Assembly (NCBI GenBank): GCA_017514905.1
Contig: JAFWIK010000023.1
Span: 1-32,812, forward strand
DNA: 32,812 nucleotides
Source of the DNA: Candidatus Saccharimonadota bacterium
GTDB lineage: Bacteria > Patescibacteriota > Saccharimonadia > Saccharimonadales > Saccharimonadaceae
Direction: 5' to 3'
Shown: positions 5,905-9,870 of the stretch, one piece after another
Numbering within the stretch: the stretch's first letter is position 1
Layout of the letters: the number at the start of each line of letters is the position of its first letter
Made by a program: the position numbers and the translations under genes
Notes under the pieces: model-generated
What the model was told of the DNA's origin: nothing
Seen by the model: only the letters and a program-made list of their open reading frames with translations
Databases searched by the model: none

Positions 5905-5980
5905 GCCGATGTAGCTCAGTTGGTAGAGCAGCTCATTCGTAACGAGCAGGTCACAGGTTCGATCCCTGCCATCGGCTCCA
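5905..5980 (+). tRNA. tRNA-Thr (anticodon CGT)
   Basis: Acceptor stem GCCGATG (5905-5911) pairs with CATCGGC, followed by T73 and an encoded CCA ending at 5980. The D arm is GCTC...GAGC, the anticodon loop TTCGTAA carries CGT, which reads ACG, and the T-loop is TTCGATC. Two A-C mismatches are visible: the last pair of the anticodon stem and the outer pair of the T stem. The gene overlaps neither neighbour and is followed by T6. Confidence 0.95.
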
Positions 5981-6014
5981 TTTTTTAAGGTTCGATCAGA
6001 CGACGAAGTGAATA

Positions 6015-6040
6015 AATATCGTGAGCTTGCTCACGATATT
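6015..6040. repeat. Perfect 12-bp hairpin in the tRNA-Thr downstream module
   Basis: 6015-6026 and 6029-6040 are perfectly complementary around a TT centre. It lies between tRNA-Thr and the copy of its 3' end and is not followed by a T run that would make it a clear terminator. Confidence 0.8.
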
Positions 6041-6058
6041 TTGAACGAGGAGGATGAA

Positions 6059-6081
6059 AGACTTTTGCAAAGCAAAAGTCT
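6059..6081. repeat. Hairpin with TTTTGC-n3-GCAAAA core next to the tRNA-Thr echo
   Basis: 6059-6068 pairs with 6072-6081 around AAA. It abuts the copied tRNA 3' end starting at 6082. A hairpin with the same core sits in the same place behind tRNA-Val (9640-9664). Confidence 0.8.
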
Positions 6082-6105
6082 ATCCCTGCCATCGGCTCCA
6101 TTTTT
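6082..6105 (+). repeat. Copy of the tRNA-Thr 3' end (24-base direct repeat)
   Basis: Identical over 24 bases to 5962-5985, covering the last T-loop bases, the 3' T stem, the 3' acceptor strand, CCA and five following T. The spacing is 120 bases. The remaining 5' part of the tRNA is absent here, so this cannot be a second tRNA gene. It resembles the duplicated end left by insertion into a tRNA T-loop, but no integrase is nearby. Confidence 0.9.
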
Positions 6106-9423: not shown

Positions 9424-9500
9424 GGGTTGTTAGCTCAGCTGGCTAGAGCGTCTCGTTTACACCGAGAAGGTCGGGGATTCGAGCTCCTCACAACCCACCA
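9424..9500 (+). tRNA. tRNA-Val (anticodon TAC)
   Basis: Acceptor GGGTTGT (9424-9430) pairs with ACAACCC, with discriminator A and encoded CCA ending at 9500. The D arm is GCTC...GAGC, the anticodon stem TCTCG/CGAGA, the loop TTTACAC with anticodon TAC, and the T arm GGGGA-TTCGAGC-TCCTC. All stems pair. The last A of CCA is already the first base of a 17-bp terminator-like hairpin. Confidence 0.95.
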
Positions 9501-9537
9501 TAGAAAATATCCAACCCTCAGGTTGGATATTTTCTAT
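9500..9537 (+). terminator. 17-bp hairpin directly after tRNA-Val
   Basis: 9500-9516 and 9521-9537 are perfectly complementary around CTCA, so the transcript would fold immediately after CCA. There is no long T run after it; it may end the tRNA transcript or guide 3' processing. A sequence-diverged but structurally equal hairpin (17 bp, 4-base loop) follows the copied tRNA end at 9682-9719. Confidence 0.7.
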
Positions 9538-9554
9538 AGATAAGTTAGAGGGGT

Positions 9555-9664
9555 GCGAATCCCATAGGGATTCGCTCGTGGTAGGAGCCGCATAAAAGTC
9601 TAACCTTTAGGTTAGACTTTTCAAGGCGACGCCCCACGAATTGTTTTTGCGTAGCAAAAACAAT
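9555..9664. repeat. Hairpin cluster between tRNA-Val and its 3'-end copy
   Basis: Three perfect hairpins follow each other: 9555-9563/9567-9575 (9 bp), 9594-9605/9610-9621 (12 bp, TTTA loop) and 9640-9650/9654-9664 (11 bp, core TTTTTGC-GTA-GCAAAAA). The last abuts the copied tRNA end at 9665. TCGTGG near 9574 and CCACGA near 9634 can also pair, enclosing the middle hairpin. No open reading frame is present. Confidence 0.75.
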
Positions 9665-9719
9665 GCTCCTCACAACCCACCATGAAAAATACCAAATCTT
9701 CTGATTTGGTATTTTTCAT
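9665..9719 (+). repeat. Copy of the tRNA-Val 3' end plus its own 17-bp hairpin
   Basis: 9665-9683 is identical to 9483-9501: last two T-loop bases, 3' T stem, 3' acceptor strand and CCA, at a spacing of 182 bases. It is followed at 9682-9698/9703-9719 by a perfect 17-bp hairpin with a 4-base loop. That hairpin resembles the one behind the real tRNA but differs at several stem positions with pairing kept on both sides. Confidence 0.88.
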
Positions 9720-9870
9720 ATGTAGTCGAGAAGCGAGAATCCCTTGGGATTCGGACCCATTATGTTTTCAGTTTTGACACAAATGTTGCAAAACTTTTCA
9801 ATCAAAAATCTTGCATCGTTTTCTTTGTGGTAGAATGGGCAAAGCGGAGGAGAAAGGATTATATTTTTAG
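9720..9870 (+). promoter_or_regulatory. Upstream region and extended -10 promoter of the racemase-like gene
   Basis: Holds a 7-bp hairpin (9737-9752) and an extended -10 box TGGTAGAAT at 9828-9836. GGAGGAG and AAAGGA follow at 9846-9857, which is further from ATG 9871 than usual. Nothing coding is seen before 9871. Confidence 0.5.

Follow-up and report, generated by a model that had tools for sequence, protein, structure and literature searches.

Background

Among described repeats, those closest in kind to the element reported here are the Rickettsia palindromic elements (RPE), together with the Wolbachia palindromic elements. According to the review PMC2229807, the RPE are palindromic sequences of 105-146 bp, found in frame in conserved genes and also within the tmRNA and M1 RNA genes; no transposase of their own is given there, and their target site duplication is listed as unknown. 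ERIC, YPAL/RU-2, Correia/NEMIS and RUP are described there as small, non-autonomous, stably folded repeats, with target duplications of 3-26 bp for YPAL (PMC2229807). The element of this study was found in a stretch of 32,812 nucleotides from a Candidatus Saccharimonadota bacterium, referred to below as the window. Like the RPE as described there, it is small and palindromic, occurs in frame in a protein gene and lies beside RNA genes, a likeness of kind. Unlike the RPE, it belongs to another phylum, has a large tRNA-linked subfamily, carries an exact copy of tRNA nucleotides 59-76 and has arms matched to its target. With ERIC, YPAL, Correia and RUP it shares small size, lack of autonomy and a stable fold, but it has no fixed terminal inverted repeats: the stems at its ends are matched to the target, which is the 3' end of a tRNA. 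We know of no established insertion mechanism for small palindromic repeats in bacterial genes such as the RPE.

Integron cassettes, with their attC sites, are folded, sequence-variable units, assembled in arrays in which the newest unit comes first. The element is likewise folded, variable in sequence and arranged with the newest unit first, but it is geneless, its repeat is the 3' end of a host tRNA, and no integron integrase was identified. Phages, islands and tycheposons integrating at tRNA genes rebuild or duplicate the tRNA sequence from the T loop to the 3' end, as the element does; to our knowledge, they are far larger, carry an integrase and have no target-matched antisense strand. 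An exact 59-76 copy combined with target-matched arms, at most kinds of tRNA, is new to us, the kind being otherwise RPE-like. The literature searched, including PMC8172020, PMC8040213, PMC2694212, PMC2229807 and PMC10969869, contains no description of the family in the portions accessible, subscription journals being covered in part. What is reported here is therefore an apparently undescribed family of folded elements of about 100-190 nt, located beside many kinds of tRNA gene and without a protein of their own.

Results

The two tRNA loci of the window

An intact tRNA-Thr(CGT) gene is located by ARAGORN at 5905-5980 (+ strand, as all features of the window given below), and is matched there by the Rfam tRNA model with 60.6 bits; its nucleotides 59-76 correspond to 5963-5980. 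A first-pass annotation had pointed to an exact 24-base repeat behind this gene, and the search bears it out: 5962-5985 recurs at 6082-6105, these are the sole two matches in the window at up to 3 mismatches, and none is expected (100 shuffles), which rules out a chance repeat. In tRNA numbering, the repeat consists of nucleotides 58-76 followed by five T, and it reaches 27 nt if one mismatch is allowed; the exact copy of nucleotides 59-76, followed by T5, occupies 6083-6100. The two hairpins previously noted between the repeats are also present. The first (6014-6026/6029-6041) has 13 perfect base pairs, while the second (6056-6068/6072-6084) pairs at 92% over 13 positions, around a perfect core, GACTTTTGC-AAA-GCAAAAGTC. 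A third piece of tRNA had been missed. Directly behind the gene and ahead of this piece stands TTTTTTAA, with a T6AA spacer at 5981-5988; next comes GGTTCGA (5989-5995), equal to tRNA nucleotides 52-58 and so repeating part of the tRNA-Thr T arm. As it is found just left of the hairpins, these split a partial second tRNA copy between its nucleotides 58 and 59. The element core (5996-6080) includes P3, hairpin III (6014-6041) and hairpin IV (6060-6080), and R1, a model built from 17 elements, matches 5942-6100 with 97.2 bits. Compared with the full-length form described below, the insert behind tRNA-Thr is shortened; both belong to one family of structured elements.

A counterpart with the same downstream gene (L181, genome G193) shows the same succession: tRNA, T6A, tRNA nucleotides 45-58, core, and tRNA nucleotides 59-76 with one change. 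At three other loci (L012, L020, L051) a mini tRNA-like repeat, GCCGGAGCGTCCCAAG..GGC..CGGCTCCATTTTT, was observed behind tRNA-Thr, partly in tandem. Contigs break within or at the end of tRNA-Thr(CGT) in G020 (C34/C37), G013 (C26) and G049 (C46), as would be expected if the insert there differs between strains.

The full-length element, also missed earlier, stands behind the only other tRNA of the window, a tRNA-Val(TAC) at 9424-9500 (ARAGORN). Together with its 18-nt copy it covers 9501-9682, and the R1 match spans 9537-9682 with 117.1 bits. Directly after CCA comes hairpin I (9501-9536), a terminator-like structure with a perfect 16-bp stem, followed by R' (9547-9554), which is paired with the copied tRNA-Val nucleotides 59-66 in the predicted fold, and by hairpin II (9555-9575), whose 3' strand, GGGATTCG, copies the unusual T arm of tRNA-Val. 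The core (9576-9664) is predicted to fold into P3 (9577-9581/9634-9638), hairpin III (9594-9605/9610-9621) and hairpin IV (9640-9650/9654-9664), and is followed by an exact 18-nt copy of tRNA-Val nucleotides 59-76 (9665-9682). The remnant of a further, right-truncated unit follows at 9683-9754, and is composed of a hairpin I (9683-9718) and a hairpin II. No listed frame of at least 80 aa falls within the inserts of the window, of about 100 and 180 nt, and no integrase gene is found in the element.

The plan of the element is thus the following. Directly behind the intact tRNA, the 3' region of that tRNA is repeated in part, up to its exact 3' end; since hairpin II repeats the T arm and the copy starts at 59, the core divides this repeat between nucleotides 58 and 59. 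In its full form the element has, in addition, the terminator-like hairpin I and the R' sequence pairing with the copied nucleotides 59-66.

Structure of the element

In the typical predicted fold, hairpin I is separate, while R' and the copied 3' end close a junction of arms II, III and IV; the core of about 85 nt corresponds to P3, hairpin III and hairpin IV. A few of the 18 folded units deviate when folded as single sequences (e.g. L078_Lys_1, L084, L085 and L087_Ser_3). In an alignment of 17 elements, 33 of 38 consensus pairs show changes on both sides. Hairpins I, III and IV contain 33 G-U pairs as against 9 A-C pairs, an excess compatible with a mutational process as well as with selection on a sense-strand RNA; it suggests some selection of the latter kind and argues against a purely mutational origin.

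Units also occur in tandem arrays of two or three and in arrays of unlike units, separated by the same tRNA copy. Left-truncated copies keep the right side, and right-truncated units are also present. Other small cassettes have hairpin I, R' and the 3' copy in common with the element, with a different or almost absent core. At locus L002, in the genome of the window (contig C20), two such tandem cassettes of 43 and 57 nt stand behind tRNA-Tyr, each followed by an exact copy of the tRNA-Tyr 3' end; their cores differ, and they appear as a sister class with the same hairpin I/R' plan. The second cassette at L067 likewise shares only hairpin I, R' and the 3' copy.

A hairpin starting at CCA was found at 51 of 72 tRNA genes with a 3' copy versus 21 of 115 without, in a sample of 187 distinct genes biased to loci fetched for the element or for tRNA-Thr. 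Most of the 21 hairpins at tRNAs without a 3' copy show remains of the element.

Size and distribution of the family

By DNA search against 99 related genomes, the window insert was found again at other places in other genomes. A tRNA was detected by ARAGORN at four of six such places (L067, L068, L069, L071), and a fifth (L066) has the end of a tRNA-Gln at its edge. A 20-nt core pattern, searched in genome_contigs, returned 23 stretches, 18 of them from Saccharibacteria. A tRNA lies just upstream in 17 of these, and the remaining one (L097) shows a partial tRNA-Gln at the contig edge. The five other matches (three Planctomycetota, one Veillonella, one Microbacterium) are in coding-like DNA without tRNA, and look like chance.

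R1 matches 139 of 174 genus genomes at E <=0.01, leaving 35 without any match, and reaches up to 18 copies per genome; the genome of the window has 9 (14 places at E <=1). Elsewhere in the phylum the family is rare: in a phylum-wide sample, 14 of 379 genomes were positive at E <=1e-4, namely 4 of the genus, including that of the window, 4 others of its family and 6 more distant. At 9 of 12 loci outside the genus, a tRNA on the same strand directly precedes the element, and at 7 its 3' end is repeated. Copies are carried by tRNAs of 15 amino acids (14 in one survey, plus Thr), and which tRNAs carry the element differs between species. Among known Rfam RNAs only tRNA was matched, with nothing else above the gathering score.

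Transport as phage or plasmid cargo was considered and rejected. Of three core patterns searched in viral_contigs, two found nothing and one found a single stretch (L217), which was taken as chance because the viral contig is GC-rich and the match falls in coding-like DNA without tRNA. Among the matches listed from phage and plasmid collections, the query was covered at its tRNA part only, and the core alone as query gave no phage match.

Matching of the element to its tRNA

The copies were compared with the tRNA they follow in 53 elements, a set in which only copies with at most 2 mismatches were kept. Identity is 92-100% at nucleotides 59-76, 75% at 58, 9% at 57 and 30% at position +1; 41 of the 53 copies are exact. 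At L207, a tRNA-Gln (ARAGORN) without an encoded CCA, the repeated copy stops at the gene end, likewise without CCA, so that what was copied is the gene and not the mature tRNA.

R' is matched to its own target, R. Over 71 elements, from which those with no detected tRNA, a distance outside 30-125 nt or a length of at most 120 nt had been left out, the R'-R duplex energy was -16.7 kcal/mol with the own R and -10.8 kcal/mol (sd 0.34) after permutation, the lowest value in 10000 permutations being -12.2 kcal/mol. Since R1 rewards R'-R pairing, the unbiased test is its repetition on 17 elements obtained by a core-only pattern, where again 0 of 10000 permutations reached the observed value. Over 60 elements, R' is Watson-Crick paired with tRNA nucleotides 59-65 in 82-93% and with 66 in 67%, and less beyond, percentages raised by an alignment chosen on the inner eight positions. 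The match of R' to the acceptor part (67-73) does not exceed chance in 57 elements, and R' as a full-length inverted copy reaching the acceptor stem was rejected as not significant on the same number.

Arm II agrees with the T arm of its own tRNA at 7.72 of 10 positions versus 6.86 after permutation, a value reached in 0 of 5000 permutations. Unusual T stems, such as AGTTCAA in tRNA-Pro, are matched by arm II in 7 of 8 tRNAs, as judged by eye. Hairpin I was also considered as a copy of the downstream flank, and rejected as not significant (48 elements).

Evidence for movement

A comparison of the same tRNA in relatives, with and without the module, had been proposed in the first-pass annotation. 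Among 56 tRNA-Thr(CGT) genes, a 3' copy was found within 500 bases in 6 and not in 49, the last one being at a contig end. The downstream gene of the window is present at 11 tRNA-Thr loci: 8 lack a copy, this family occupies 2, and one (L028) is occupied by another cassette. Different inserts occur at the same tRNA in relatives (L009, L028, L051, L052). The empty sites, the different inserts and the copies at other tRNAs rule out a static old duplication. In the first-pass annotation, a module found at this place in every relative, with no site empty, was to count in favour of such a duplication; the outcome went against it.

Two tRNA-Val loci from two species (L110 and L108) carry elements differing at 1 of about 165 bases, with both flanks unalignable; in each species, both 18-mers are of the allele of its own tRNA. 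In G006, this element stands between the tRNA and an older, decayed unit, and the downstream gene is that of the tRNA-Val of the window. The earlier suggestion of a minimal mobile element at a tRNA T loop is therefore upheld, by the empty sites (8 of 11), the occurrence of the same family behind other tRNAs and the near-identical element in two species with unrelated flanks.

When elements were compared by core, 8 of 82 had their nearest neighbour within their own genome (3.6 expected), and 31 of 82 had it at a tRNA for the same amino acid (6.1 expected). This clustering suggests that many copies are old or bound to their locus, and that moves between tRNA types are rarer. In pairs with similar cores (>=80%) at tRNAs of different amino acids (76 pairs), similarity was 0.61 for hairpin I and 0.56 for R', with backgrounds of 0.61 and 0.53; the corresponding values for the same amino acid (38 pairs) were 0.71 and 0.69. 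As hairpin I and R' are at background between tRNA types, the arms do not appear to travel with the core, and would be remade.

Relatives in or beside protein genes

Six weaker R1 matches in the genome of the window are not associated with a tRNA. One (L134, 1501-1624, equal to C13:38401-38524) lies in frame in alaS; two GC-rich core relatives lie in frame in an Obg-type GTPase frame (L136, 1501-1602, contig C13) and in a diacylglycerol kinase frame (L138, 1501-1602, contig C11), both named by eye. Of the others, L137 falls close to a PNPase-like frame but not within it, L133 coincides with the end of a frame resembling a surface protein, and L135 is beside a sigma-factor-like frame. Structure prediction for L134, L136, L137 and L138 places the core within long inverted arms, which differ by site.

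The insert in alanyl-tRNA synthetase accounts for about 59 residues; its older part is a palindromic insert, inside which the core is nested. An alaS match was obtained in 28 of 30 genomes, including that of the window, mostly split at residues 485/545. The loci of 12 of 27 relatives could be aligned through the site, the 15 others being dropped because one flank or another had no blastn match; 10 of the 12 show no insert or a few codons, and 2 (G007 and G006) a palindromic insert without the core. In-frame insertion with uninterrupted homologues is thus seen at alaS, the one gene for which homologues were compared. The three alaS inserts have three different arm pairs, each self-complementary by eye, which suggests that the stems drift in sequence while pairing is kept.

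Enzymes encoded in the genomes

Of 80 genomes, 78 encode Phage_integrase, in many cases by one Xer-like gene only; the genome of the window has exactly one. RVT_1 is present in 50 of the 80; mean copy number of the element, tallied by hand with genomes absent from the R1 listing counted as zero, is 2.7 in these 50 versus 2.6 in the 30 without it. RVT_1 is absent from the genome of the window and from several nearly complete genomes carrying copies. Cas1, which a casposon- or CRISPR-type insertion would call for, was found in 7 of 60 genus genomes, Y1_Tnp in 2 of 60 and Resolvase, a serine recombinase, in 35 of 60; all three are absent from the genome of the window, a draft 87% complete, which qualifies its absences. 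Over the 60-80 genomes, none of reverse transcriptase, Cas1, Y1 transposase and serine recombinase tracks the element. At L210, in a genome from the same taxonomic class, an open frame (1797-2891) resembling part of a serine recombinase by eye is located between tRNA-Ser and an element.

As a small repeat with a long stem-loop fold, many copies and no protein of its own, the element is of the palindromic, MITE- or RPE-like kind. Set beside a classical MITE, its ends vary with the target, a parent element was not found, and Y1_Tnp is as rare as stated.

Discussion

The preferred reading, to which we assign a probability of roughly one half, is that the element is a non-autonomous palindromic mobile DNA of Saccharibacteria, with arms made by template switching and spread by short-homology exchange. 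The core would settle in hairpin loops, at tRNA genes in the T loop of a T-arm copy and elsewhere in GC-rich palindromes within or close to protein genes. The arms would be made or repaired by template switching inside the palindrome, and so re-matched to the current target. Template switching during replication is reported to create and mend hairpins (PMC8794818). Selection would keep the upstream tRNA intact; termination of its transcript at hairpin I and masking of the surplus 3' half by R' would make insertion cheap for the host. Elements could pass between species when DNA is taken up and recombines at the tRNA over short homology; an enzyme acting in trans is the alternative. The edges at 59 and 76 are sharper than template switching alone would predict, and the lack of an acceptor match in R' leaves an original full-length inverted copy unsupported. 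Since only the Xer-type recombinase is nearly universal and the other enzymes are missing from the genome of the window, template switching with short-homology exchange is favoured, and the rival explanations are kept.

Taken together, R' and arm II would be antisense to tRNA nucleotides 52-66, spanning the insertion point at 58/59. They could be the address of a protein-free, self-addressing element, which would read its target by pairing, have its core inserted by a house-keeping enzyme (Xer or replication) and have the address copied anew at each new tRNA; we regard this as possible, though rather doubtful. It is unlikely, and somewhat more so than self-addressing, that the units are integron-like cassettes, in which the resident Xer or phage integrase would recombine a folded single strand with the T arm, near-identical across tRNAs. 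The near-universal Phage_integrase, single in the genome of the window, the newest unit adjoining the tRNA and the same repeat separating the units of arrays are all consistent with it. Identity from the T loop to the 3' end is the classical footprint of tRNA integrases, and the element fits it. However, a conservative crossover leaves one copy of donor type, unless conversion followed, while in L110 and L108 both 59-76 copies are of host type in elements otherwise 99% identical. In addition, resemblance to the tRNA drops to background left of the right junction, and between tRNA types a similar core is not accompanied by a similar hairpin I or R'. No conserved recombinase core site was found at the junction: only the host tRNA nucleotides 59-76 are shared, the left side being at background. 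The integrase att-site footprint initially proposed for the repeat finds no support, as the sequence adjacent to the junction is unconserved and neither hairpin I nor the anti-target strand accompanies the core.

Two further explanations are less probable again. The element may be a host regulatory RNA, i.e. a functional tRNA trailer, selected and immobile, tracking its own tRNA by compensatory change. Strong covariation, the excess of G-U over A-C pairs, clustering by amino acid and the terminator-like hairpin at CCA would all suit such a trailer, but different tRNAs carry the element in different species, empty sites occur, and 35 of 174 genus genomes lack it at E 0.01; tandem, truncated and decayed copies, a near-identical copy across species with unrelated flanks and relatives in or beside protein genes weigh in the same direction. 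Slightly lower still is the probability of an RNA-guided or tRNA-primed retroelement, in which a reverse transcriptase would copy the core in after pairing of R' with the tRNA or the tRNA gene. Nucleotides 59-76 are the same 18 nt used as primer binding site by retroviruses, and the exact 18-nt boundary, the target-matched R' and the left-truncated copies keeping their right side agree with this mechanism; against it are the absence of RVT_1 from the genome of the window, a copy number that is nearly the same with and without RVT_1, the L207 copy, which lacks CCA and ends at the gene end, and the existence of right-truncated units.

Many copies record their target, in the 18-nt copy, the T-arm copy and the matched arm, and near relatives offer empty sites; insertion and arm matching can therefore be read from sequence in this family. 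If template switching makes the arms, as in the preferred reading, replication errors alone would build compensatory stems that mimic the evolution of a structured RNA. If the arm acts as an address, pairing-directed insertion that needs no dedicated protein would have a minimal natural example here. Repeats of tRNA 3' ends in tiny genomes need not be integrase sites.
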